Assembly: GCA_937872225.1 (NCBI GenBank)
Contig: CALMRZ010000083.1
Location: 1-34,829 of the forward strand
Origin: an uncultured Spirochaetota bacterium
Lineage (GTDB): Bacteria; Spirochaetota; UBA4802; UBA5550
Direction of reading: 5' to 3'
DNA length: 34,829 nt
The notes beneath the pieces are model-generated. The model ran no database searches. It had not been told where the DNA came from and worked only from the letters and a program-made list of their open reading frames with translations. Positions within the stretch are counted from its first letter, which is position 1, and every line of letters begins with the position of its first letter. Positions 7,116-34,651 of this stretch are shown piece after piece. The translations under genes were made by a program, and so were the position numbers.

Positions 7116-7214
7116 TTTCAGGTTATATCCGTACTTATTGGATACGCGTACGGCAACAACAACGCGCTTGTGAACACAAACCCCAGAAGGAGCGGCCACA
7201 GGACAGGATCACCT

Positions 7215-8246
7215 ATGAAAAAAATAGCGTATTTCGATTCATCCCACGACATGCCCGAAGAGATCATAATGGCGGCTGGGTTTGTCCCCTACAAGATCTT
7301 CGGGGACGTCCATAAATCCAATGCCCCGGCCGACCAGTACCTGCAGGCCTTCTTCTGCCCGGCGGCCCGGAGCTTCCTCACCGAGGCCCTCACCCGGTCG
7401 GCGGAATGGGAGGGAATCATCGTTGCCCAGGGCTGCAACGCCACCAACCGCCACTACGACGTGTGGAAGCGCCACGTGAGCACGCCGTTCCTCCACTGGT
7501 TCAACGGCCCCATCAAGGACGACGCCATGGCGCTTCGCTTCATGAAAACCGAGCTGTGGCGCCTCATCGATACACTCAACCGGCAGTTCAGAGTATCGAT
7601 AACCGATGACATGATAGCCGCCGCCATCCGGGAATCCAATGAGGTCAAAAAGCGGCTTCAGAGAGTATCCGCCCTGAGGAGCGAAAAGGACATCACCAAC
7701 CGCGAATACCTCACGGTGCTGATAAAAAGCATGACCCTGCCCAAGAAAGACGCCGTGGCCGCGATCGACGAACTTATACACAAAGCTGAAAAGGGCGGCC
7801 CCATCCCGAAAAACAATATCAAGGTCCTGCTGACCGGCTCAGATGTGACGTACCCGGAGCTCATGGACCAGATCGACGAGGCGGGTTTCAGGGTCGTCCG
7901 CGACGACCTCTCCGTCGGCGAGCGTTACTATACAACCCTGATCCCCGAGGACGGGAACCCCGTCGACGCCCTGGCCCGGTACTACCTCTCGGTTCCCAGG
8001 CCTGCAACGAAGGTGGGGATGAGGAAGAGGATCGAATACCTTGAGGGGGCCCTGGCCGATTCGGGCCTGGACACGGTCATATCCCAGAACATCAAGTTCT
8101 GCGAACCCTTCGCGTATGACTCCGTCATGGTGAACGGCGAATTGAAGGAGAGGGGTATACGCCTCCTCCACATCGAACGGGAATTCACGCCCGGTCCGGA
8201 CAACCAGCTCATGAACCGTCTTGCCGCATTCTCAGAGATGTTATAA
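7215..8246 (+). CDS. 2-hydroxyacyl-CoA dehydratase / benzoyl-CoA reductase family subunit (small)
   Basis: This 343-residue protein belongs to the HgdB/BcrC/FldC-type family, whose subunits carry a [4Fe-4S] cluster and act on CoA thioesters after ATP-driven electron transfer from a separate activator. Three cysteines have the expected layout: C48 in FFCPAARSF, C74 in AQGCNATNRHYDVW and C296 in IKFCEPFAYD. The start is ATG 7215, with AGGA 6 nt upstream; an in-frame GTG at 7170 has no good ribosome-binding site. The second subunit follows after 12 nt, so they form an operon. Sequence alone does not tell dehydratase from aryl-CoA reductase, and the activator ATPase is not in this window. Confidence 0.87.
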   Translation: MKKIAYFDSSHDMPEEIIMAAGFVPYKIFGDVHKSNAPADQYLQAFFCPAARSFLTEALTRSAEWEGIIVAQGCNATNRHYDVWKRHVSTPFLHWFNGPIKDDAMALRFMKTELWRLIDTLNRQFRVSITDDMIAAAIRESNEVKKRLQRVSALRSEKDITNREYLTVLIKSMTLPKKDAVAAIDELIHKAEKGGPIPKNNIKVLLTGSDVTYPELMDQIDEAGFRVVRDDLSVGERYYTTLIPEDGNPVDALARYYLSVPRPATKVGMRKRIEYLEGALADSGLDTVISQNIKFCEPFAYDSVMVNGELKERGIRLLHIEREFTPGPDNQLMNRLAAFSEML

Positions 8247-8258
8247 CAGGTGGACACC

Positions 8259-9548
8259 ATGAACCAGCAAACAACAGCGCCGGCTTCCCTGGAAGCCCCC
8301 CAGATCAGAATTGACACACTTCCCCACGCGAAAAGCCTCAAGTGGCCCATGGTATGGTACCTGCTGGTCGGCCAGCTTTACTCCATGCTCCCGTGGAAAA
8401 AGACCGCCTGGACCTGCGCCGGCTTCCCGGTGGAGCTCCTCTGGGGCTTCGACATCTTCCCCCTGCACCCGGAGAACATGGCGACCGTGGCGGCCGCCCA
8501 GAAGCAGTCCCAGCGGCTGATAGAACACGCCGAGGGAATGGGTTATTCCCGGGACCTCTGCTCCTACTGCAAGACCAACCTCGGCGCGGTGGACACCAAC
8601 ATCAAGACCACCCTGGGCGGCATCGCGAAGCCAGACATCATAACCTGCACCAACACGATCTGCGACACCCACTGGAAGTGGTTCCAGATCCAGGCGGAGA
8701 AGCTGAAGGTGCCGATATTCATCTTCGACTGCCCCAAGATCGTAAGCGGAACCGATGAGAGGACCATCGAGGGCTATATCAACTACATGGTGGAGCAGTT
8801 CTACGATTTCTTCGAATTCGTGAAGAAGCACACCGGCAAGGAGCTTAACATCGACCGCCTCAACCGGGCCTGCGAGGAATCGGAGCGCATGAGCGTTCTC
8901 TGGCGGGAGATCTACGAGTACCGCAAGTGCGTGCCCAGCCCCTACAGCTCGGCCGAGACTTCAGCGTCATTCTTTCCCCTGGTGGTCCTCCCCGGGAAAA
9001 AGGTCGGCATCAAGTTCTTCGAGAAGATAAAGGGCGACATCAGGAAGCGCGCCGAAAGCGGCCGGGGAACCCTTTCCGGCGGAGCCAAAGAGCGTTACCG
9101 CCTTCTGTTCGAGGGGATCCCCTTCTGGTACAAGATGCGCTTCATGTACGACCTGGCGAAGTACAGCGCCGTGGTGACCTACGAGCCCTACACCTTCTCC
9201 TTCGCGCCGCCGAAGCCGGTGGGCAAGGACTACACCGAAACGCTGCGGGAAGTGGCCCGCATCATGATGGACCTCCCCTATTCCTACAACCTTGAAAAGC
9301 GGATACAGTACTTCGAACAGGCCGTGAAGGACTTCAAGATAGACGGCGTGATACTCCACGAAAATCTCTCGTGCCGCCCGTCCAGCACCGGTATGATCGA
9401 CCTGAAGAACGCGATACAGGAGGACCTGGGGGTGCCGGTCCTCATCCTCCAGTGCGACATGAACGACCCTCGCGCCTACTCCGAGGCGCAGATGAAGACA
9501 CGGATCGAGAGCTTCATCGAAGTGATGGAGAAGAACCGGAAAGGATAA
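8259..9548 (+). CDS. 2-hydroxyacyl-CoA dehydratase / benzoyl-CoA reductase family subunit (large)
   Basis: This 429-residue partner subunit of the same superfamily (BcrB/HgdA-like) has hallmark cysteines at C101 and C104 (LCSYCKTNLG), C130 and C135 (ITCTNTICDTHWKWFQ), C158 (IFDCPK) and C372 (ENLSCRPSSTGM). Ten cysteines in total suggest iron-sulfur ligation. The start is ATG 8259, with AGGTGG 5 nt upstream; the GTG three codons earlier lies inside that ribosome-binding site. It probably forms a heterodimer with the preceding gene product. The substrate is unknown. The FATP-like acyl-CoA synthetase converging on it could supply CoA thioesters, but this is only a positional hint. Confidence 0.87.
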   Translation: MNQQTTAPASLEAPQIRIDTLPHAKSLKWPMVWYLLVGQLYSMLPWKKTAWTCAGFPVELLWGFDIFPLHPENMATVAAAQKQSQRLIEHAEGMGYSRDLCSYCKTNLGAVDTNIKTTLGGIAKPDIITCTNTICDTHWKWFQIQAEKLKVPIFIFDCPKIVSGTDERTIEGYINYMVEQFYDFFEFVKKHTGKELNIDRLNRACEESERMSVLWREIYEYRKCVPSPYSSAETSASFFPLVVLPGKKVGIKFFEKIKGDIRKRAESGRGTLSGGAKERYRLLFEGIPFWYKMRFMYDLAKYSAVVTYEPYTFSFAPPKPVGKDYTETLREVARIMMDLPYSYNLEKRIQYFEQAVKDFKIDGVILHENLSCRPSSTGMIDLKNAIQEDLGVPVLILQCDMNDPRAYSEAQMKTRIESFIEVMEKNRKG

Positions 9549-9842: not shown

Positions 9843-11681
9843 TCAGACCAGGAACGCCTCGCGTCCGTTCTTTATAAAGCCATCCTTGATTTCGAGAAAT
9901 TTTTCCCGTGTCATCCGACGATAGGTGCTGTCGCCCCGTTCCCGGAAATAGACCGTCATATCGGGATTTTTTTCGATGTTGAAATAGTCCTTTTTATAGG
10001 GCTTGACCATGATTTTCTGCGTATCGGTGACGGGGAAGCTGTCGATGATGCGGATGTAATCGGGCATCCACTTGGGGTCCATCCCGCCCTCCTTCTGCTG
10101 TCTCAACAGCCACGCATGGGCGTCTTCCGGATTAAAGGCGCAGTTCTTCTTGAGCTGGACGGTTACCATGACATGCTCGTCGGCCACGGCGCAGGGAGCG
10201 CCGTATGCGACGGCCATATCGACTCCGGGGATCCCCTGGGCGAAATGGAGCACATTCTCGGCGGAAAAGTTCTCTCCGTCCTTGCGGATCCAGTCGTCGG
10301 TGCGGCCGTTGAAGTAGAGGTACCGTTTGCCGTTGACGATGCGGACATGTCCCAGGTCGCCGGAGTGATACATGCCGTTGCGGAATTTCTGGCCGGTGGC
10401 CCCCTTGTTATCGAAGTAGCCGTCGAAACGGAGGTTGTCCGTGCCCACTTTCCGGCATATCTCGCCGACCGCCTCGTCATAGTTGGTCAGTTTACCGCTG
10501 GCGTCAACGATGCCCGGGACACACTCTTTTCCTTCTTCATTGAGAATCAGCACGTCCTTCGGCGCCATGCCGACGCTTTCTATCGGGTCTCCCGGTCTGT
10601 TCGCGGTAGTGATGACCGCCTCGGTGGAGCCGTATATCTCGAAAATGTGCTCCATGCCGAGATAGCGCTTCAGGTTCTTCCGGTCTATGATCGAAGCCCC
10701 GTTCCCGTAGGCGACGCGAAACCTGTTTCTCGGATCATTGGCCAGGGCCTTTTCTATGGCGTCGCCGCTGCCGTATTTCTTTTCAAGGGCATCGATGATA
10801 TAGTGCAGCGGCTGTCCCACATAGTTGAGAAACGTCACGCCGAACTCGAGCATGTCCTTCTCGAAGGCGCTGGCGCTGAACTTTCTCTTGAGCACGAAGC
10901 TTCCGCCGGCGATGAGCTGCGGCAGGATGCCGATATACCAGGCATTGGAATGAAAAAGGGGCATCGAGATGTAACCCCGGTCCTTCCTGGTGAGCTTCAC
11001 CGCACTCTGGACCACGAAGCCGGCCCCCACGAGCTTGATGTGGGTGCAGGGAACGCCCTTGGGCATTCCCGTTGTGCCGGACGTATAAATGACGATGACC
11101 GGGCTGAAGTTGTCCACACCGACCCGGTAACGCCCGGGCACCTTTTTGTCCGACCCGGCGATCGCCTTCGCCAGGCTCCGGTATCCCGTTTTTGCGGCTT
11201 CCTCTTCGGTGCCGGCGCAGAATATCTCCTTCTCGCCGATGACCGTAATCTCACGGACGACTTTCTTTATCTCATCGGCGGAATTCCCATTCACGACAAG
11301 GAAAGCTATTTTCGCCTGGTCTATCACTTTCGCCAGGGTTTCGCCCCGGAAGCCGGTGTTGATGGCGAAAAGGATCGAGTTGCTCAGTCCTGCCGCAAGG
11401 GAAGCGAACACGTATTCCGGCGTGTTCTCCATGTATATGCCCAGGGCCAGGCGGTCCTTCTTGCCCAGTTTTCCTGCATCGACCATCTTCTTCCTTTCTG
11501 ACAAAAAGAAATTAGCGTATATCTTCGCCTGCCTGTATGTCTCACCGTAGGTATATTCCCTGCCCTCGAAAATGAAAAGCACGCGGTTCCTCCGTATGAA
11601 CATTCCCGACAGGGTTAACTTCAGCATTGAACGGAAATTGACAAACCATAAAAAACGCCGGAGAAATGACTTAAGATTCAT
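9843..11681 (-). CDS. Long-chain acyl-CoA synthetase, FATP-like AMP-binding enzyme
   Basis: This 612-residue adenylate-forming ligase activates a carboxylic acid to its CoA thioester via an acyl-AMP. The P-loop-like motif IYTSGTTGMPKGVP lies near residues 197-210, EIYGSTEA near 345, the adenylate-binding YHSGDLG near 435 and the hinge region FNGRTDDWIRKDGENFSAENV near 457. A lysine-rich C-terminus (DTQKIMVKPYKKD, about 545-557) supplies the catalytic Lys. The motifs resemble the FATP/very-long-chain subfamily, and the basic hydrophobic N-terminus may attach to membrane. The start is ATG 11681, with AGAGG 6 nt upstream; another ATG five codons earlier lies within that ribosome-binding site. 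It converges on the dehydratase pair. Confidence 0.9.
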   Translation of the reverse strand: MNLKSFLRRFLWFVNFRSMLKLTLSGMFIRRNRVLFIFEGREYTYGETYRQAKIYANFFLSERKKMVDAGKLGKKDRLALGIYMENTPEYVFASLAAGLSNSILFAINTGFRGETLAKVIDQAKIAFLVVNGNSADEIKKVVREITVIGEKEIFCAGTEEEAAKTGYRSLAKAIAGSDKKVPGRYRVGVDNFSPVIVIYTSGTTGMPKGVPCTHIKLVGAGFVVQSAVKLTRKDRGYISMPLFHSNAWYIGILPQLIAGGSFVLKRKFSASAFEKDMLEFGVTFLNYVGQPLHYIIDALEKKYGSGDAIEKALANDPRNRFRVAYGNGASIIDRKNLKRYLGMEHIFEIYGSTEAVITTANRPGDPIESVGMAPKDVLILNEEGKECVPGIVDASGKLTNYDEAVGEICRKVGTDNLRFDGYFDNKGATGQKFRNGMYHSGDLGHVRIVNGKRYLYFNGRTDDWIRKDGENFSAENVLHFAQGIPGVDMAVAYGAPCAVADEHVMVTVQLKKNCAFNPEDAHAWLLRQQKEGGMDPKWMPDYIRIIDSFPVTDTQKIMVKPYKKDYFNIEKNPDMTVYFRERGDSTYRRMTREKFLEIKDGFIKNGREAFLV

Positions 11682-11783
11682 GCACCACCTCTTCATACCA
11701 GTCTATTGTATATGTTCCATGGATGTACAGCCCTCCTCGGAGACTCCCGACCATACATTCAATGCATGCATATAGAATCAATT

Positions 11784-16455: not shown

Positions 16456-17124
16456 TTACTTGCTGAATTTCGGTATCTGCAGCTTCATGTTCTGCAAGGT
16501 AACGAACGGCATCTTCACCACGGTCATGTTGACAAGACCCGACGGCAGGCTTCCGCCCGGATCAGCCAGGTTCTGGTAGGTGACTTTGGTCTGGTTTTTC
16601 CCGACCGCTTCGAACATCCACACGCCGACCATTTTAGGCATGCGCACGATCCCTTTCCGCGGAGGAACGGAATCAAGATTTATCCCCTGGAAGGTGCGGA
16701 CGATCTTGGTCGGGGTCCTGACGATATGGGTCTGGATCACGACGTCCCTGTTCGAAACGAGGGGCGCCGTAACGACATTGTACTGTATGGGGTTGACCGG
16801 GTCGTTCTTGACGACTTTCGATTCAATGGTGTCGCACATCCAGTTCACCTGGTTCGGGACATCGGAGATGATCTTGTCAATGACCGCCATCGGCGCATCC
16901 ATGACCGTCACGCCGAGGAACTCCTTGAAATCGATCCCGTCCACGTCGCGTACAAACACCTGTATGCCGTCTTTGTTCTTCTTCAGCACCCAGGGATGAT
17001 CTTTCTTTACTTCTGTCTTCTGAGCGTCTTTAGCCTTTTCTTCCTTCGCGGCGGCGTAAAATGGTATCACTGCGACGAGCGCGCATGCCGTTATGAAGGC
17101 CATCAGTTTATGCTGATACTTCAT
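16456..17124 (-). CDS. Exported START-domain-like protein (paralog 1)
   Basis: This 222-residue protein has a signal peptide (about 1-26, ending FYAAAKEE) and a START/polyketide-cyclase-like lipid-binding fold (inferred). Key stretches are WVLKKNKDGIQVFVRDVDG, FKEFLGVTVMDAP, VSNRDVVIQ, RTFQGINLDSVPPRKGIVRM and the family-like VGVWMFEAVGKNQTKVTYQN followed by DPGGSLPSGLVN. It is likely periplasmic and may bind a hydrophobic ligand. The ribosome-binding site AAGGAGGA lies 5 nt before the ATG. It is clearly related to the protein at 23583-24254 but not identical to it, so it is an older duplication. It has its own promoter (17265-17293) and terminator. Confidence 0.85.
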   Translation of the reverse strand: MKYQHKLMAFITACALVAVIPFYAAAKEEKAKDAQKTEVKKDHPWVLKKNKDGIQVFVRDVDGIDFKEFLGVTVMDAPMAVIDKIISDVPNQVNWMCDTIESKVVKNDPVNPIQYNVVTAPLVSNRDVVIQTHIVRTPTKIVRTFQGINLDSVPPRKGIVRMPKMVGVWMFEAVGKNQTKVTYQNLADPGGSLPSGLVNMTVVKMPFVTLQNMKLQIPKFSK

Positions 17125-22109: not shown

Positions 22110-23438
22110 ATGGATTACCGCGAGAAAAGCTGGTGGCTCGAGACACTTTCCCGGAACCTCAAGGAAAACCCCTCTCTGGAATCATCGGAGAAAACCGACG
22201 TGGTCGTCATCGGCGGCGGATACACCGGACTTTCCACGGGTTATCACCTCAAGGCCATGAACCCAAACATGGACGTCTGCGTCCTGGAAAGCGAGATATG
22301 CGGCTACGGGGCCAGCGGCCGCAACGGCGGGTTCTCCATGACCCTCTTCGGCCTCACGAAGGGATTAACGAAATTCCGCTTCGGCGACGATAAGGCCCGG
22401 GACGCGCAGCTGTACCTGGAAGCGGCCGTCGACTACCTGGACGAATTCATCGCGAAAAACCGCCTCGACTGCGATTACGAACGAAGCGGGTACCTCCTCG
22501 TCGCCACGAGTCCGGCCCAGATCAAGCGGCTCGAGCATGACTTTGAAATCATGCACCGCTGGGGCATAACCGGCGTCGAGCGGTGGGAGCGGGACCGTCT
22601 CGCCGCGGAATTCAACACGGACTTCTACAAACTCGGCTGGTTCGAACCGCGATGCGCCATCCTCAACCCGGCAAAGCTGGCCCGGGAAATGAAGCGCGTC
22701 ACGGAAAAAAAAGGCGTGGTCATATACGAAAATTCCCCGGTGACCGCCTTCGAGAAAAAGGGAGACGGCAGGTTCCGCGTAACGACCGTCAACGGCGAAA
22801 TAGTTTCTGAATACCTGGTGCTGGCGACCAACGCGTATTCCATTTTGTTCCCCCAGCTGAAATCCCTGCAGACGCCCGCCTTCACCCATATCGTCCTCAC
22901 GGAACCCCTCAGCAGGCGGCAGCTGAAATCGATCGGCTGGAAATGCCGTGCCGGCGTGGAGGACGCCCGCGACTTCATTCACTACTATCGCCTCACGGCG
23001 GACAACCGCATTGCCATGGGAGGCGGCGACGTGTCCCTCACCTACGGCGCCGACTTCAACCATGACCGCAACGACCGGATATTCAGGATGCTGGAGGACC
23101 ACATCACCGAGGTATTTCCACAGCTGAAGGGCATCGGCATCACCCACCGGTGGGGGGGGCCGGTTTCCATAACCCTGGACATGGCCCCGGCCATCGGGTA
23201 TATCGGCCGCGACAAGAAGGCGATCTATTCACTCGGCTGCATGGGGCACGGCGTCTCCATGACCACCCTCAACGGAATGACCATCGCTGAAATGATCCTC
23301 AATAAAAAAACATCCAGGACCGGCCTCTTTTTCGTCGGACGCAGGACCATCCCCTGGCCGCCCGAGCCGTTCAAGTTCGGCCTGTCCCAGGCGGTGCGCG
23401 GCTACATGCTCCTTGAGGACAGGGTGAAATATAAATAA
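22110..23438 (+). CDS. FAD-dependent amine oxidoreductase (DAO family)
   Basis: This 442-residue flavoprotein of the D-amino-acid oxidase family resembles gamma-glutamylputrescine oxidoreductases (PuuB-like). The dinucleotide-binding motif VVVIGGGYTGLSTGYHL lies near residues 31-47, with E of CVLES closing the Rossmann fold. GYGASGRNGGF (about 70) is the family's flavin-contact loop, and the C-terminal MAPAIGYIGRD and YSLGCMGHGVSMT complete FAD binding. It probably oxidises a secondary amine or amino acid; the exact substrate is unknown. CAGGAGG lies 6 nt before the ATG. It is a single-gene unit with its own promoter and a palindrome after it. Confidence 0.88.
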   Translation: MDYREKSWWLETLSRNLKENPSLESSEKTDVVVIGGGYTGLSTGYHLKAMNPNMDVCVLESEICGYGASGRNGGFSMTLFGLTKGLTKFRFGDDKARDAQLYLEAAVDYLDEFIAKNRLDCDYERSGYLLVATSPAQIKRLEHDFEIMHRWGITGVERWERDRLAAEFNTDFYKLGWFEPRCAILNPAKLAREMKRVTEKKGVVIYENSPVTAFEKKGDGRFRVTTVNGEIVSEYLVLATNAYSILFPQLKSLQTPAFTHIVLTEPLSRRQLKSIGWKCRAGVEDARDFIHYYRLTADNRIAMGGGDVSLTYGADFNHDRNDRIFRMLEDHITEVFPQLKGIGITHRWGGPVSITLDMAPAIGYIGRDKKAIYSLGCMGHGVSMTTLNGMTIAEMILNKKTSRTGLFFVGRRTIPWPPEPFKFGLSQAVRGYMLLEDRVKYK

Positions 23439-23582: not shown

Positions 23583-24254
23583 ATGAAAAAGATCTGTTAT
23601 CAATCAGCAGCTGTTATTGTAACGCTCTCTTTATTCATAACCTCTGTTGCGCCGGCCCAGGAAAACAACTGGACGCTGAAAAAAAACAGGAAAGGGATAC
23701 AGGTGTACACGAGGGACGTCCCGGGATCGGACTTCAAGGAATTCAGGGCAACCATCGTGGTTGAAGCGACCATGGCCGGGGTCCTCAAGCTGATGGAAGA
23801 CATCAGGTCGTACCCCCTCTGGTTTCCCAAGCTGAAGGAGTCCCTACTCCTGAAAAAGATAAGCTCCACGGAGATGATCCTTTACCACTGGATGAAGGTG
23901 CCCTTCCCCGCCGATGACCGTGACTCGGTTTTCAAAGTCACCGCCCGGCGGGATGCCAGAACAAAAACCGTCACGCTGGGCCTATCCAGCCTGCCCGACT
24001 ACCTGCCCGAACGGAAGGGCATCATCCGCGTCAGGCAGATCTCGGGCAGCTGGACCTTCATCCCGGACAAAGACCGGGGAACCGTAACGGTGATCTACCA
24101 GATGCACAGCGATCCCGGCGGCAAACTTACGCCGCTGCTGGCCAATGCCGCCGTGGTCAATCGGCCCTTTACTGTCCTGAAAAACATGCGTGAAATGCTC
24201 AAAAAGCCGGAATACCGCGACGCGAAAGATTCCGAATTGCAGCTTTTCCGATAA
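23583..24254 (+). CDS. Exported START-domain-like protein (paralog 2)
   Basis: This 223-residue protein has a signal peptide (about 1-24, ending SVAPAQE) and the same core as the protein at 16456-17124: WTLKKNRKGIQVYTRDVPG, FKEFRATIVVEATM, the central RKGIIRVRQISGSWTFIP, and YQMHSDPGGKLTPLLAN. START-like folds bind lipids or other hydrophobic ligands in a central cavity. An aromatic cluster (YPLWFPKL) and YHWMKVPFPADDRDSVF match related eukaryotic START proteins better than paralog 1 does. CAGGG lies 5 nt before the ATG. It is likely periplasmic; its function is unknown. Confidence 0.85.
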   Translation: MKKICYQSAAVIVTLSLFITSVAPAQENNWTLKKNRKGIQVYTRDVPGSDFKEFRATIVVEATMAGVLKLMEDIRSYPLWFPKLKESLLLKKISSTEMILYHWMKVPFPADDRDSVFKVTARRDARTKTVTLGLSSLPDYLPERKGIIRVRQISGSWTFIPDKDRGTVTVIYQMHSDPGGKLTPLLANAAVVNRPFTVLKNMREMLKKPEYRDAKDSELQLFR

Positions 24255-24559
24255 CCCTCCGTCAAGAGGAGCCCGTCAGTCAATCCGGCGCACGAACATC
24301 TTTCCACTGTCACTTTTCCCATGACCTGCCGGTAATTTTTTTATTTTTATTATTTACAACCGCGGCATATTTCCTTATTTTATTAGCACCTTGCTGAATA
24401 CAGGTCATGTGCCCGGACATTACGGCGAATGCCTGTCATAAACACATATAACAGCGTAGGGCTAATTCTACCACTGGCTGACTGCGCCGACCTGACGGCC
24501 GGGCAGGGATAAATTTTTTGTCCAAACGTTTAATACTACATTGTTATATGGAGGCATGG
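24255..24559 (+). other. 305-nt intergenic region
   Basis: No gene is seen. A promoter candidate is TTTACA (24353-24358), 17 bp, TATTTT (24376-24381), which would give a leader of about 170 nt for the LolA-like gene. An in-frame TTG at 24518 could extend that gene but has no ribosome-binding site. Confidence 0.4.
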
Positions 24560-25405
24560 ATGCGATTTTTAAAAACTACGATCATAGCCGCATTGGTATT
24601 CGGGTGCGCGGTATCAGTCCTGGCTGAAACCGCTGAGGAAATGGGGACCCGCCTGATGAAAACGAACGACGACCAGCCGATATTCCAGAAGGTCAAGGGC
24701 GACGCTACCATTAAAATTTACGGGAGCACCGGCGACCTCAGGTTCCAGAAAAAGCTGGTCATGGCTTCATACACCGAATTTATCGGTACGGACAGGCAAA
24801 AGGAGAATTACATCAGCACGTTCCTTGAGCCGGCCGATGACGCCGGGAACTCATACATGATGTTCAACTATAAGTACGAGCCGGACATCAAGTATGTCTA
24901 CCTCAAGGGGATCAGAAAGGCGAAGAAAGTCACCGGCGCGGACAAACGTCTCAGTTTCTTCGGCAGCGATTTCTCAAACGGCGACATTGGTAAACCCGAC
25001 TTCACCGAGTGCACCTACAGGACCCTTGCCGACACTCGCATGACGTTTAAGGGAAAGGACTTCGACTGCTATGTCATCGAGAGTTTGCCGAAAAACGACC
25101 AGATCGTCAGGGACACCGGCTACGGCCGCAAGGTGACCTATCTTGAAAAGAAAACCCTGCTCACGCTGAAGATCGAATACTACGACGAAAACAAGATCAA
25201 GACGAAGGAGCTTTCCCTGCTGTCCTTCATAACACGCAACAACGTCAACGGGAAGAAGGTCTATTACACGACCGGCCTCGAAATGAAAAACGTCAAGCGC
25301 GGCACAAGGACCGAGCTGCTCTTCAGCAACATGCACTTTGAAGAAGAAGCCAACTTTACGCCCAACATTTTCACCGTTGAATACCTGACGAGGAAATGGT
25401 GGTAG
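24560..25405 (+). CDS. LolA-like outer-membrane lipoprotein-sorting protein
   Basis: This 281-residue exported protein has a signal peptide (1-22, ending SVLA-ET). Its mature domain resembles the LolA/LppX-like family linked to outer-membrane lipoprotein carriers (COG2834 type): ETAEEMGTRLMKTN, then STFLEPADDAGNSYMMFNY, VYLKGIRKAKKV, a central YRTLADTRMTFKGKDFDCYV, and TYLEKKTLLTLKIEYYDENK. Such proteins often accompany RND-type export systems, but none is seen here. The start is ATG 24560, with GGAGG 5 nt upstream. An ATG four codons earlier and a TTG at 24518 are less likely. The monohaem lipoprotein follows about 190 nt downstream. Confidence 0.83.
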   Translation: MRFLKTTIIAALVFGCAVSVLAETAEEMGTRLMKTNDDQPIFQKVKGDATIKIYGSTGDLRFQKKLVMASYTEFIGTDRQKENYISTFLEPADDAGNSYMMFNYKYEPDIKYVYLKGIRKAKKVTGADKRLSFFGSDFSNGDIGKPDFTECTYRTLADTRMTFKGKDFDCYVIESLPKNDQIVRDTGYGRKVTYLEKKTLLTLKIEYYDENKIKTKELSLLSFITRNNVNGKKVYYTTGLEMKNVKRGTRTELLFSNMHFEEEANFTPNIFTVEYLTRKWW

Positions 25406-28918: not shown

Positions 28919-30070
28919 CTACCGTTTTCCCACGACCAGGTTGTAAAGCCGGTCAAGACTGCCCACATACCCGAACTCGTTGTCGTACCAGAAATTAAGG
29001 TCAACCATGGTATACAGCCTGTCATCCCGTTTCGTGGTCCTCCGGTGCGTGAAGGGGGAATCGTAAATCGTGGAGTAGGTGCTCCCGATGATGTCCGAGC
29101 TCACCAACTGGCGTTCGGAGAACATCATGATGTCCGGGTTCCGCTCGCTGTACTTCTTGAATATCCCGTGGATATAGGTGTTGTCATATTCGCCGAGCAG
29201 GGAAATGTCCAGGATCACGATGGAGGCCGTGCTGGTGGGGACCCTGAGGGAGGACGCCTGTGACCCGATGCCGAGGGTCCGTATTTCCGGAATGACCTCG
29301 ATGACGGCATTGGCGGCGCCGGTCGTTGAGGGAATGATATTGTTCATGATACTCCTGGTCTTGCGGCAGTCCTTTTCCCCGTCCTTGGGCAGCACGTCCA
29401 GGACCTTCTGTGAGTTCGTGGCGGCGTGCACCGTTGTCAGGGCATAGGATATGAACTTCTCGCCGAAATGCTCGACCAGCGCCTTGATCGGGGGCGCGCA
29501 GCAGTTCGTGGTGCACGACGCGTTGGATATGATCCTGTGCACCGCCGGGTCGTACTTGTCGAAATTGACGCCGCCCACGACCGTGACGGCGTCATCGGGC
29601 ATCGAGGTTCCCTTGTTCTTGATCTTGAAGGGGGCCGTCAGTATGACCTTCTTCGCGTTGTTGAGGTGGCCCCGCAGGGAATTGTCCTCGCCGGACGTGG
29701 GGTCGGTCATCTTGCCGGTGGTATCAAAGACGACCTCCACCCCGTACCGCGACCAGGGAATGGCCCCGGGGGCGCGGAACTGTGACTCGTTCAGCCAAAC
29801 CAGCTTCTTGCCGTTCATGTATATGACGTCGTTCTTTATCTCGATGGCCTTTTCTTTCCGGAACCCGAACAGGAATCGCGCGTAGGGCCCGTAGGTGGAG
29901 TCGTAGCCAAGATACGTGACAAGGTCCTCGAGGCTCTTGCCGGTTTTTCGCCCGGTGGAAACCACGATTTCCTCAAGATCGCTTTTCGTGGACATGACCC
30001 AGACCAGAAGTTTCCCGATCCTGCCTATTCCATTTATTCCAACCGGTGATTTTGGTGATATGGTGCTCAT
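28919..30070 (-). CDS. gap: Glyceraldehyde-3-phosphate dehydrogenase, atypical
   Basis: This 383-residue enzyme of glycolysis/gluconeogenesis oxidises glyceraldehyde 3-phosphate to 1,3-bisphosphoglycerate with NAD(P)+. NAD-binding GINGIGRIGK lies at 11-20, catalytic C186 in SNASCTTNCCAP, H215 in TTVHAATNSQKVLD, then NIIPSTTGAANAV, SLRVPTSTASIVILD and WYDNEFGYV. It is about 50 residues longer than usual, mostly before the catalytic cysteine (for example FGFRKEKAIEIKN and PGAIPWSRYGVEVV), and its cofactor region reads VSTGRKTGKS where ordinary enzymes have an ND-type stretch. The start is ATG 30070, with AGGAG 7 nt upstream. It lies 75 nt downstream of the PPDK-like gene on the same strand, with a stem-loop between. 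Confidence 0.9.
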   Translation of the reverse strand: MSTISPKSPVGINGIGRIGKLLVWVMSTKSDLEEIVVSTGRKTGKSLEDLVTYLGYDSTYGPYARFLFGFRKEKAIEIKNDVIYMNGKKLVWLNESQFRAPGAIPWSRYGVEVVFDTTGKMTDPTSGEDNSLRGHLNNAKKVILTAPFKIKNKGTSMPDDAVTVVGGVNFDKYDPAVHRIISNASCTTNCCAPPIKALVEHFGEKFISYALTTVHAATNSQKVLDVLPKDGEKDCRKTRSIMNNIIPSTTGAANAVIEVIPEIRTLGIGSQASSLRVPTSTASIVILDISLLGEYDNTYIHGIFKKYSERNPDIMMFSERQLVSSDIIGSTYSTIYDSPFTHRRTTKRDDRLYTMVDLNFWYDNEFGYVGSLDRLYNLVVGKR

Positions 30071-30103
30071 GATCCTTCTCCTCAAAGATTATTATAATTA
30101 TAC

Positions 30104-30145: not shown

Positions 30146-33100
30146 TCAGTTAACATCCGCCGGGATGCCATGCTTCCGGGTCCGATGATAGCCCATGTAA
30201 ACATTCCCCGTTGATCCGTCAATGGTAATAAAATCGCCCTCCCGAACCAGGACATGGCCGTCCTCCGCCGAAGCGTACTCGACAAAGGCCTGGTTGTTGT
30301 CCTCATCGATATGCATGATGGAAAAGTCGCTGACGCCGGACTTCTCCAGGCGACGCATCTGCAGCACGGCGTGGGACGTCATCCCGCCGATGCAGGTGAG
30401 GATCCCGTCCGATTTTTCCATCCCCACCACGTCCTCGGGATTCGTCTCGGGGCGGATAAGGATCAACCGGTCGCCGGGGAATTTCTTCCGCAACTCGTCT
30501 ATGCGGTCTATCATGAAGACCGCCCTCCCTGAAACGACGCCCCCGGACGCGGCAAGGCCCTGCCCCAGGTGGTACGGCTCAATGGCCTGGGGAGGCTCAA
30601 CCAGTTCCTCGACTTCGAAGATCTGGTTCACCATGCCGCGCACCTGGAGTATGTAGAGGATCCCGTTCTCAATGGTGAATTCTATCTGGAGGTCGTTTCC
30701 CCACTTGTCCCGTATGCGCTGTACCGCGCAGAAGAGCATGTTATACAGCTCGGGGAACTTCTCCTCCATGGAAGGCATGGAGGCAAATTTGCGGTACACC
30801 TTTTTCTGGTCTTCACTGATGGGGAAAACCCGGGCTATGCCGCTGACGATGTCATGGCCCTGCGAACGGGTCTTGTACTCGCCGAAAAGGTCGATCTTCT
30901 CGTTGCCATGGTAGCGGCTGTGCACGACCCCCGTTATGCTGTCGGGGGATGAATTTCCGAAGACCATGTTCTGGATTATGACCGCGGTGCCCCACTCGTC
31001 CGATATATTCACCAGTTCGCGGTACTTAACCGCCACCGGCGAGTTCCAGGACCGGAACACGGCGACGATCGAGTAGAGGAGCTGTTCGTAGGGGTCCTCC
31101 GGTATGTAGTGGCCCTGGTTTCTTATCTCGTCAAAGTACTGGACCGCCAGGTCGGCCATCTGGTCCCCGGTCATTTTCTCCTTCAGGTCCACGCCGACCC
31201 TCTCCTTGTAGTCATACATCAGCGTCTCGAAGACCTGGCGGCTCATGCCGTAATACGATATGGCAAGGTCCTGGAGGAAACGGCGGTAACAGTCGCAGGC
31301 AAACCACTGGTCGGAGCGGGCGTAGTAATTCAGCACCTCCCGGGTCATCCCGACGTTGGTGATGGTGTCCATGACGCCGGGCATGGAAAAGACCGCGCCG
31401 CTGCGCACCGAAAGAAGCTGGGGATTGCGCGCGTTGCCGAACCTGTTCCCGGTGAACTTGTCGATGTACCGCTTCAGGAGATAGATCATCTGCTGCCGCG
31501 ATTCGGTGTCGTTTATGATGGCGTCGCCCAGGCGCTTGTAGAGCTCCGACGAGAGGATGATGCCGGGGGGGGCGTTGACCCCTTCCATGTTGGCGATGAA
31601 CAGGAGGCCGTGGGCCTTGCTGCCGATTTCCCAGACCGGGGCGAAGCGCTCCTCTTCGCCGTGGGCCTCGGCGATCTTCTTGATGTCGTGGATCTGGGCG
31701 TAATGGTCCTCGTCGTAGGGGTCATAGGGATCGAAGGGGTCGCTCGGGTCGTCGAGGAGCCTGATGACCTCCCACACGCTGTTGCCGACGCCGGGACTGC
31801 GGTGGTGCTCGTTCAGGCACACGGCGTCGCCCGATTCGCCGATCATTGCGACCAGGCGGTCCTTGAGGGAGATGAGAAAATTGTCAAAGAGCTGCAGCAG
31901 CGGGGACTGCATGATCTGGCTTCGGACAAAGCGGTCGATGATGATGTCGGCGTTCTCGGCGTTCTCCCGGGGAATGTACTGGCGGGCTATGCGTTTAACG
32001 CCGATGTTGCGGATCGCCTCGCGGCACACGTACTTGAACGTCTCGTTGAACCGGTCCGATATCTCGCCGTGGATGAACAGGGTATGGGTAACGATGTCCC
32101 TGAGCTGGGAAAGCTTCAGGTTGGGGGTCTCCAGCAGGTTGTTATAGTTCAGCATCTCCTGGTTCGCCAGCCCGTCGATGACGAAAGTCTTGATGAAGAG
32201 CTTCAGCACCTTCTTGACGTCGCCGAGTGAAACCGGCCTGCCCGACGGGATGTCCATCTCCTCGATTATCTTCTCGAAGAACCTGACCCTGATCAGGTTC
32301 ATGTGGAAAAAGACCTTGAGTGTATCGAATTTCTTTTCCTTGTAGGAGCCGTACATTGACGGGATCCCGAAGGCAATGTGCCGCTTCAGGTCGATGGTGT
32401 CCAGGGGCTCGAAGACCTGGCTTGAGAGAAGTATCTCGTCCTTTAAAACCAGCTGTTCCCTGAGAAGGACGTCCAGGGCCGACAGCGTATCAGGGCCCTT
32501 GATGGCATCGAAGAAGCCCGCCGGCGGCTCGAAGAGGATCTCCCGCGCGTACTGCTCGAGCTTTTCGATGACGCGGATGTCGGTGAAATTGTACTTGTCG
32601 AAGAGGAGCCGGTACACGTGGAGGAAGGTGATGAACTTCTCCATGTTCACCTTCGATACGTCGCGGGTGCGCACCTCGTCGAACATCTTCCTAAAGTCAT
32701 CGTCGGATATCTCGTATATGAACTTCCATATTATTTTCTTGGATGAGTCCAGGGAAAACTTGTTCCTGATGAAATGGAGTATCTTCGTCATCTCTGTCGG
32801 GAGCCGCGTCTCGAAATAGAGGTTGAAATAATGCAGCGCCTGCTCCTTCTCACCGTCGGTGACCCCCTCGAAGGAGCGGCTGTTAACGAACCCCAAGAAT
32901 GCGTCCTCATCAACCGTGTCGAGGAAGTCCCAGAACTTCCGGTCCCCCATGTCGGGGAACTGCCTTAACGCCTCCTGGTATATTTTACGGGGCGCGTCCT
33001 CCACGTCGAGGTTGACCAGGCGGAAAAACTCATCCAGGTTATCATACACCTCCGGCGGCACCATGTTCTTGAGGAGCGTCTTCTTCCCCGTCATCCAGTA

Positions 33101-34651
33101 CTCCATGACGCGCTGGATCAGGTACACCGTCTGGCTGCTCGATTCCACGTGGACCTGCTTGCGTATAAAGTGGATCAGGTCGTCCATCCTGTGGTTGGTG
33201 TCGATCCGCTCCGTGAATGACCGGATGTCGCCCGTGGCGCCGATGTCATGATAGAAGGCGGGGAACACCGAGGCGAGGGATATGATCAGATAAAAGACGT
33301 CACGGTAGTTGCTGTTGAGGAGCTTCGAGATGTCGCGCTGGAACACGTCGGTGTCCTTGAGGAACACCCCGTAGAGCTTCAGGTTGACGATGAGGCTCGC
33401 CGAGAGCTTTTTCATCACCGGCGGGTTTATCTCGATGAGCTTCATCCAGGTGCGGATGTTCTCCAGGTGGCTCGAATTCACGATCACCGACCAGTCCGAG
33501 GCGATCCCCGATATCTCCGGGAAGCTGAACTTCGAGCGGACCAGTATGTCCTCGAAGAAATCGATGAGGCCGATATTGCCCGACTCAATGACCGAACGGC
33601 CGATGTTATAAATCGTCGAAAAGGCGCCGGTGTAGTTGCCGCCCCGCTCGATCTCGGAAAGCAGCACCGGCATGACCAGGTTGATGACTTTCTGGAGAAG
33701 GGTAAAGCGGCTGCTTTTCACCAGAACCGAGCAGAGCGAGGCCAGGGTGCGGGAGATGAAAAGCTGGAGGTGCCGGTCCTCGCCCTCGTTGGACTTGCGG
33801 ATGAGGAACTCGAATATGTTGATGATCGCCTCGTCCTCATCAATCTCGCCGCCCTCGATGGACCCCTTGGCGAGAATGCATATCCTTTCCCAGAGGCTGG
33901 TGTTGTGCTTGAAGTCGACGATGTCGTTCTTCCCGAGGAAAAGCTCCGACGGTTTTTCGGCCGCAAGGCGCTCGATCTCCTCGCAACGGTGGGTATAGGC
34001 GGCCATGGTGACGGCCCGCAGGAGATCGACGAGCCGGTCACGGCCGGCGATATTTTTCAGAACGCCGTAGAGCTCGAGAATGTCCGCCTCCTGGACGATA
34101 ATGGCCCGCTCCATGTACACCCGGTACTGCAGCGCCAGGAGCCGGGCCACCGACTTCACGGCCGGGCTGTCGCCTTCCCCGTTTCTGCACAGGAGACTTC
34201 CGAAGGTGAAAAAGCGGTCATGGATGTTCTCGAAGAAGAACTTTTCCTCCGTCAGTTCTATCAGCAGGGAGAGATAATCGTCCACGGAGGAATCAAAAAA
34301 CTCCCTGAGGGGGCCGAAGGATGCGTCCCCGCCGGTTGACTTGTTGAGAACGAAGATATACCGGTCGAAATAGGTGTCGCAGGCCCTGATCGCCGATACC
34401 TTTTTCCGTATCGTGGCCTCGCGGAGGTAATGATACACCACGGGCATGACGGTTTGCGCATAGGGCAGGATGTCGAACAGGTAATCGAAGAGGTAGCCCC
34501 GGAGGCCGGTGATGGCGTATTTCCAGTCGATATTGGGGTGGGTAAGCTCTGCGATGAGGTTACTGGTCTTCTGCACCGCTCCCACCATGTCCCGAACCGG
34601 CAGGAGAAGTTCTTTTACGCGTTCCCTCATGTTCTCATCGACAGCAATCAT
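30146..34651 (-). CDS. Giant PPDK-like ATP-grasp/phosphohistidine protein with novel N-terminus
   Basis: This 1501-residue protein has three parts. Residues 1-960 show no recognised domain and look mostly helical (for example FFENIHDRFFTFGSLLCR, EKFITFLHVYRLLFDKYNF), perhaps a HEAT-like scaffold. A D/P-rich hinge (DPSDPFDPYDPYDEDHY) follows at about 966-985. The C-terminal 500 residues match the front half of pyruvate phosphate dikinase: IGSKAHGLLFIANM, LLSVRSGAVFSMPGVMDTI (about 1076), the metal-binding LQIEFTIENG and LQVRG, the swivel start LAASGGVVSGRAVF, then RPETNPEDVVGMEKSDGILT and GGMTSHA with phospho-acceptor H1427. The PEP/pyruvate TIM barrel is absent; the protein ends at IDGSTGNVYMGYH. 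It should phosphorylate its own His from ATP, with an unknown acceptor. GGAG lies 5 nt before the ATG. Confidence 0.9.
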   Translation of the reverse strand: MIAVDENMRERVKELLLPVRDMVGAVQKTSNLIAELTHPNIDWKYAITGLRGYLFDYLFDILPYAQTVMPVVYHYLREATIRKKVSAIRACDTYFDRYIFVLNKSTGGDASFGPLREFFDSSVDDYLSLLIELTEEKFFFENIHDRFFTFGSLLCRNGEGDSPAVKSVARLLALQYRVYMERAIIVQEADILELYGVLKNIAGRDRLVDLLRAVTMAAYTHRCEEIERLAAEKPSELFLGKNDIVDFKHNTSLWERICILAKGSIEGGEIDEDEAIINIFEFLIRKSNEGEDRHLQLFISRTLASLCSVLVKSSRFTLLQKVINLVMPVLLSEIERGGNYTGAFSTIYNIGRSVIESGNIGLIDFFEDILVRSKFSFPEISGIASDWSVIVNSSHLENIRTWMKLIEINPPVMKKLSASLIVNLKLYGVFLKDTDVFQRDISKLLNSNYRDVFYLIISLASVFPAFYHDIGATGDIRSFTERIDTNHRMDDLIHFIRKQVHVESSSQTVYLIQRVMEYWMTGKKTLLKNMVPPEVYDNLDEFFRLVNLDVEDAPRKIYQEALRQFPDMGDRKFWDFLDTVDEDAFLGFVNSRSFEGVTDGEKEQALHYFNLYFETRLPTEMTKILHFIRNKFSLDSSKKIIWKFIYEISDDDFRKMFDEVRTRDVSKVNMEKFITFLHVYRLLFDKYNFTDIRVIEKLEQYAREILFEPPAGFFDAIKGPDTLSALDVLLREQLVLKDEILLSSQVFEPLDTIDLKRHIAFGIPSMYGSYKEKKFDTLKVFFHMNLIRVRFFEKIIEEMDIPSGRPVSLGDVKKVLKLFIKTFVIDGLANQEMLNYNNLLETPNLKLSQLRDIVTHTLFIHGEISDRFNETFKYVCREAIRNIGVKRIARQYIPRENAENADIIIDRFVRSQIMQSPLLQLFDNFLISLKDRLVAMIGESGDAVCLNEHHRSPGVGNSVWEVIRLLDDPSDPFDPYDPYDEDHYAQIHDIKKIAEAHGEEERFAPVWEIGSKAHGLLFIANMEGVNAPPGIILSSELYKRLGDAIINDTESRQQMIYLLKRYIDKFTGNRFGNARNPQLLSVRSGAVFSMPGVMDTITNVGMTREVLNYYARSDQWFACDCYRRFLQDLAISYYGMSRQVFETLMYDYKERVGVDLKEKMTGDQMADLAVQYFDEIRNQGHYIPEDPYEQLLYSIVAVFRSWNSPVAVKYRELVNISDEWGTAVIIQNMVFGNSSPDSITGVVHSRYHGNEKIDLFGEYKTRSQGHDIVSGIARVFPISEDQKKVYRKFASMPSMEEKFPELYNMLFCAVQRIRDKWGNDLQIEFTIENGILYILQVRGMVNQIFEVEELVEPPQAIEPYHLGQGLAASGGVVSGRAVFMIDRIDELRKKFPGDRLILIRPETNPEDVVGMEKSDGILTCIGGMTSHAVLQMRRLEKSGVSDFSIMHIDEDNNQAFVEYASAEDGHVLVREGDFITIDGSTGNVYMGYHRTRKHGIPADVN

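Follow-up and report, generated by a model that had tools for sequence, protein, structure and literature searches.

The window (the whole 34,829 bp stretch of DNA analysed here, from an uncultured spirochaete) contains a gene for a 1501-residue protein, referred to below as the dikinase, that retains the phosphate-donor half of pyruvate phosphate dikinase (PPDK), ends without the PEP/pyruvate barrel and carries a long N-terminal region predicted to be an alpha-solenoid. The gene immediately downstream encodes a divergent GAPDH paralogue, and the two genes are linked throughout the loci compared. We tentatively interpret the dikinase as a PPDK-derived two-site phosphotransferase in which the solenoid provides the acceptor site and the GAPDH-family protein is a dedicated partner. 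The architecture and the gene linkage are far more certain than this mechanism as a whole, which we would place somewhat short of an even chance.

The dikinase gene and its PPDK-like donor half

The dikinase gene occupies positions 30146–34651 (minus strand). Twenty full-length homologues, all from one Spirochaetota order, are 1452–1518 residues long (53–89% identity) and every one of them ends just past the swivelling His domain; the set was later enlarged by three further copies, full or partial. The gene evolves under purifying selection (whole-gene dN/dS 0.09–0.13), and the next gene downstream, encoding the GAPDH paralogue, follows after a gap of 60 bp. Because of this closely spaced downstream gene and the end point common to the 20 homologues, the dikinase is neither a frameshift product nor an assembly artefact. 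In a Pfam scan the only matches above the curated cut-offs are PPDK_N (residues 1059–1339) and the PEP-utilizers mobile (His) domain (residues 1396–1482), with PEP-utilizers_C (PF02896), the PEP/pyruvate barrel, absent. The single observation in favour of a truncated or decaying PPDK, or of an error of assembly or annotation, comes from genome G195, in which the gene (L051:8636–13212) consists of two overlapping open reading frames split near residue 426, which may be a real split or a sequencing error. Twenty homologues that agree in length and in where they end, strong purifying selection and invariant catalytic residues rule this reading out, leaving it a vanishingly small probability.

The PPDK-type ATP-grasp domain spans residues 1005–1345 (30617–31639, minus strand; PF01326, 67.4 bits) and the swivelling phosphohistidine domain residues 1361–1490 (30182–30571, minus strand; PF00391, 44.9 bits). 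The TIGR01828 model (pyruvate phosphate dikinase) scores 323.7 bits, below its curated cut-off of 843.45, whereas the PEP synthase NCBIfam model scores 46 bits only, and the dikinase is therefore related to PPDK and not to PEP synthase. In a predicted model of residues 305–1501, residues 984–1501 superpose on residues 2–523 of PPDK (1kbl) with a Z score of 34.2 over 427 residues, compared with Z scores of 19.3 against rifampin phosphotransferase (RPH) and 18.2 against PEP synthase. The match stops at PPDK residue 515–523, ahead of the barrel; the dikinase therefore holds the entire donor half of PPDK and ends before the PEP/pyruvate barrel.

The PPDK residues K22, R92, E323, Q335, R337, T453 and H455 correspond to K1012, R1083, E1324, Q1336, R1338, T1425 and H1427 of the dikinase, all of which are invariant among 22 full-length members. 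The catalytic His codon (H1427; 30371–30373, minus strand) lies within the phosphohistidine loop GGMTSHAVLQMRRLEKSGVSDF at residues 1423–1443, 17 of whose 21 residues are invariant in the family alignment. A preliminary description of this gene, made from the DNA letters, had held that the ATP-grasp and catalytic-His signatures are intact and that the protein stops after the His domain with no PEP barrel. Both statements are borne out: every motif that it quoted is present, no barrel domain is found, the structural match runs no further than PPDK residue 523, and the donor residues are invariant with the exception of the PPDK D321 position, which is Q in the window's own genus and E in the other members.

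The dikinase thus shares with PPDK (TIGR01828; 1kbl) the ATP-grasp and swivelling His domains, the donor-site residues and the GGMTSHA motif, but it lacks the C-terminal barrel, carries an N-terminal extension of ~1000 residues and differs in two details of the donor half. The segment after the catalytic His is a family-conserved HAVLQMRRLEKSGVSD, where PPDK has HAAVVARGMG and the genome's own PPDK has HAAVVARGMGKCCVSG, and it includes a V489 to Q replacement in 22/22 members. In addition, the genome's own PPDK has a linker between the ATP-grasp and His domains that exceeds the linker of the dikinase by ~30 residues. Both the altered segment and the shorter linker are compatible with a new acceptor geometry.

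The N-terminal region and its conserved blocks

The N-terminal region (residues 1–950; 31802–34651, minus strand) is of unassigned family. Residues 1–985 have no convincing match among Pfam, NCBIfam or PADLOC models and no PDB sequence match; hits to APG12 (E ~0.01–0.06, under the curated cut-off) were treated as chance. A variable linker of ~54 residues (residues 951–1004; 31640–31801, minus strand) with zero invariant columns separates this region from the ATP-grasp domain, and contains an acidic/proline-rich insertion in the window's genus. The preliminary description had called the N-terminus unknown and put it at 960 residues; no Pfam, NCBIfam or PDB family matches it, and the size is revised to ~950 residues plus the linker, with the PPDK-like part starting from residue ~1005.

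An AlphaFold2 model of the region built with 25 homologues is nearly all helix (mean pLDDT 77.8), and the fold is predicted to be an alpha-solenoid. The structural neighbours of the model (Foldseek, VIA-align) are generic solenoids only, e.g. importin and exportin, with a best Z score of 9.6; we regard such matches to a predicted model as uninformative, in that they name no family. No RIF-binding-type fold is among the structural matches listed for the model.

Two blocks of the N-terminal region are more strongly conserved than either catalytic domain. Core block 1 (residues 371–510; 33122–33541, minus strand) has 55% invariant columns and core block 2 (residues 741–800; 32252–32431, minus strand) has 52%, compared with 33% in the ATP-grasp domain and 41% in the His domain. 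Block 2 contains HIAFGIPSMYGSYKEKKFDTL at residues 758–778, the most conserved 21-mer in the entire dikinase (20/21 invariant), and block 1 has a dN/dS of 0.033–0.037, which is under the ATP-grasp value in all three within-genus pairs. This pattern is as expected were the acceptor site located there. The proposal that the acceptor site lies in the N-terminus, made in the preliminary description, gains indirect support, in that nowhere else in the dikinase is constraint as strong as in these blocks.

Several of the invariant loops (residues 378–392, 431–434, 464–474 and 754–769) coincide with low-pLDDT parts of the predicted model, and may form an acceptor or a docking site. Both blocks are candidate acceptor sites, and block 1 is also a candidate docking surface; solenoid folds usually bind proteins, so that the conservation could mark a surface to which a protein docks.

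The GAPDH paralogue and its linkage to the dikinase

The partner gene (28919–30085, minus strand; likely ATG start at 30070) encodes a protein with Gp_dh_N and Gp_dh_C domains and a TIGR01534 score of 295.6 bits, below the curated cut-off of 367.2. It resembles type I GAPDH (TIGR01534) in its fold domains, its catalytic Cys (SNASCTTNC) and His (TTVH.ATNSQ), its RVP arginine and its TTGAA motif. The Cys and His are invariant in the family alignment and dN/dS is 0.04–0.06; because the catalytic residues are kept and constraint is strong, the paralogue is probably a working dehydrogenase. It differs from type I GAPDH in having 38–42% identity to most canonical copies of the order, in its dedicated linkage to the dikinase, in several insertions and at two further sites. 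The first is the NAD-discriminating Asp32 region, which reads TGR; Asp32 of GAPDH hydrogen-bonds the 2′-hydroxyl of NAD (PMC3728087). In a Rossmann fold such a TGR suggests that the paralogue may use NADP(H), loss of D32 being no proof of it. The second is a D181 to S replacement in the substrate-phosphate site of GAPDH. This replacement and the conserved paralogue-specific insertions, which include a basic FTH.RT.KR stretch, suggest that the substrate may not be triose phosphate.

The preliminary description had pointed to homologues of equal architecture and their conserved neighbours as informative, and the comparison of loci yields both. The paralogue is the next gene downstream of the dikinase on the same strand in 21/21 loci, with intergenic gaps of -4 to 297 bp (first-start rule), and there is no third conserved neighbour, the other neighbour clusters extending to no more than six of the 21 loci (a count that leaves out clusters of antisense ORFs within the dikinase and paralogue genes). 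Among 46 genomes of the order, both genes are found in 24 and neither in 19, with the dikinase only in two and the paralogue only in one. The two dikinase-only copies run off contig ends, and the paralogue-only copy is on a 3.2-kb contig (L112, genome G158) whose remaining upstream sequence lacks the dikinase; this sequence is ~670 bp long and resembles that of genome G071 immediately before the start codon.

Profile searches of 393 Spirochaetota genomes reveal no dikinase relatives outside the order, and none are present in plasmids or viral contigs; the scan of other phyla was made solely with exact peptides of the window dikinase. Similarly, a comparison with 247 Spirochaetota genomes gives no relatives of the paralogue at E ≤ 1e-60 beyond the order.

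Gene linkage is evidence for shared function and not for a shared intermediate, and here it may reflect co-regulation instead. A physical complex of the two proteins, with the solenoid holding the paralogue and a labile acyl phosphate being channelled between both active sites, would be consistent with the linkage and co-occurrence of the two genes, with the predicted solenoid fold and with the paralogue-specific insertions, including the conserved basic stretch, although we consider it unlikely.

The window's genome also holds a canonical GAPDH, a PGK and PPDK-type genes. Nearly every genome of the order has a PGK, and barrel-bearing proteins occur in 46/46, including the 19 without the dikinase-paralogue pair. 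Because these canonical components are also present, the pair supplements central metabolism rather than replacing part of it, and its simple interpretation as a PGK replacement is ruled out by the near-universal presence of PGK. The distribution of barrel proteins also bears on the phosphorelay to a separate protein suggested in the preliminary description, should the H1427 phosphate pass to a protein with a PEP/pyruvate barrel, making a split dikinase. The genome does encode a second barrel-bearing PPDK-like protein of 868 residues near pgk (L111:677–3283; G000:C71), the N-terminus of which is missed by the PPDK_N model. However, barrel proteins occur in genomes with or without the dikinase, hence with no specific association, and none is linked to the dikinase locus, so that a relay of this type is very improbable.

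Several other genes of related families were observed. Copies of the second barrel protein (~860–910 residues) are found in most genomes of the order, and several adjoin pgk. Three more barrel-less PPDK_N proteins are encoded in the window's genome: a 913-residue protein with an RPH-like layout (L052:7452–10193), an 864-residue protein with PPDK_N only (L054:6092–8686) and a 787-residue protein with a partial PPDK_N and a His domain (L055:10840–13203). A divergent second PGK (L113–L119; ~435–470 residues where complete) is present in several genomes of the order that lack the pair, mostly close relatives of one another, and none of the five contexts viewed shows an adjacent GAPDH.

Elsewhere in the window two adjoining genes (7170–9548, plus strand) belong to the 2-hydroxyglutaryl-CoA dehydratase D-component family, with an AMP-binding enzyme nearby (9843–11696, minus strand). 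An FAD-dependent oxidoreductase and a LolA-like protein (22110–23438 and 24518–25405, plus strand) are located near two START-domain proteins (16456–17124 and 23583–24254).

Related phosphotransferases and a proposed mechanism

The literature found on the dikinase's architecture is restricted to VadK, RPH and HpeHI. VadK (Rv1127c) of Mycobacterium tuberculosis, a PPDK derivative that lacks the barrel, undergoes autophosphorylation on its His (PMC12636432) and binds methylcitrate-cycle enzymes (PMC12636432; EMBO Rep 2026, PMC13400623). VadK and the dikinase both have the PPDK ATP-grasp and His domains without the barrel, and VadK is described as PPDK-evolved (PMC12636432). However, VadK is ~50 kDa and has neither a solenoid nor any N-terminal extension, whereas the dikinase has 1501 residues and a predicted 950-residue solenoid; the described partners of VadK are methylcitrate-cycle enzymes, whereas the neighbour of the dikinase is a GAPDH paralogue.

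RPH (PMC4844700) and HpeHI (PMC12167813) illustrate that the PPDK superfamily swaps acceptor domains. RPH and HpeHI/PpsAB are small-molecule dikinases whose His swivel works by the same chemistry and serves an acceptor domain other than that for PEP (PMC4844700, PMC12167813), as is proposed here for the dikinase. The order of domains in RPH is ATP-grasp, acceptor and C-terminal His, but in the dikinase the His domain comes almost directly after the ATP-grasp and the acceptor candidate is N-terminal to it; the Z score of the dikinase model is also lower to RPH than to PPDK (19 vs 34). Because VadK has no barrel and RPH and HpeHI have other acceptor domains, barrel loss is, on these precedents, not new in itself. 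The preliminary description is revised in this respect; the strongest clue, and the new component, is the GAPDH paralogue, which lies beyond the gene that it had covered.

Because VadK is barrel-less, autophosphorylates and binds enzymes, the main rival to our interpretation is a VadK-like regulatory His kinase, in which H1427 would be autophosphorylated and the solenoid would be a scaffold for binding a target protein, either the GAPDH paralogue or some other enzyme, and for adjusting the activity of that target to the energy charge. Such a role would fit the VadK precedent and also the predicted alpha-solenoid, the top structural matches of which are the protein-binding importin and exportin at middling Z scores, and the fixed linkage of the dikinase to a single other protein gene. 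VadK, however, has no counterpart to the N-terminal extension, and the near-invariant glycine- and charge-rich loops are more like a ligand or active site than a protein-docking face. Signalling would also still require a phosphate acceptor, and the dikinase shows neither a receiver nor an HPt-like domain. We regard regulation of this kind as possible, though rather unlikely.

In the two-site phosphotransferase that we favor, ATP would phosphorylate H1427 as in PPDK, a step supported by the conserved donor sequence. The His domain would then swing back to an acceptor pocket putatively formed by the invariant solenoid loops (within residues 371–510 and 741–800). A carboxylate, which may already carry a phosphate, is the probable acceptor and would be turned into an acyl phosphate. 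The GAPDH paralogue would then reduce the acyl phosphate, NADPH being the probable reductant, to give an aldehyde. Alternatively, the pair may run in the opposite direction, making ATP from AMP as PPDK does. A carboxylate is favored because its activation and reduction via an acyl phosphate usually involves a kinase together with a GAPDH-fold dehydrogenase, e.g. PGK/GAPDH and aspartokinase/semialdehyde dehydrogenase. A more specific proposal is that the dikinase represents a new class, in which an alpha-solenoid acceptor domain receives phosphate via the phosphohistidine, a carboxylate becomes an acyl phosphate as ATP is converted to AMP, and the product is handed to the dedicated GAPDH-family reductase; in reverse, ATP would be formed from AMP (plus pyrophosphate if PPDK-like) during aldehyde oxidation. 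This fuller version is conceivable but doubtful.

PPDK-type His-swivel enzymes have repeatedly swapped the acceptor module, with pyruvate, rifampin, phenols and glucans as acceptors. The interpretation offered here, if true, would add a kind of acceptor domain that is undescribed in the superfamily and far larger than the known ones. It would also be the first case known to us of a GAPDH-type dehydrogenase paired with a dikinase of this sort, and the obligate pairing of dikinase and paralogue suggests a phosphate-transfer system of two enzymes that is as yet undescribed. The two genes, with a catalytic His in one product, a catalytic Cys in the other and two invariant blocks, make a testable two-protein system, and if the acyl-phosphate reading is true, the carboxylate kinase/dehydrogenase logic would have been reinvented with a dikinase as the kinase.
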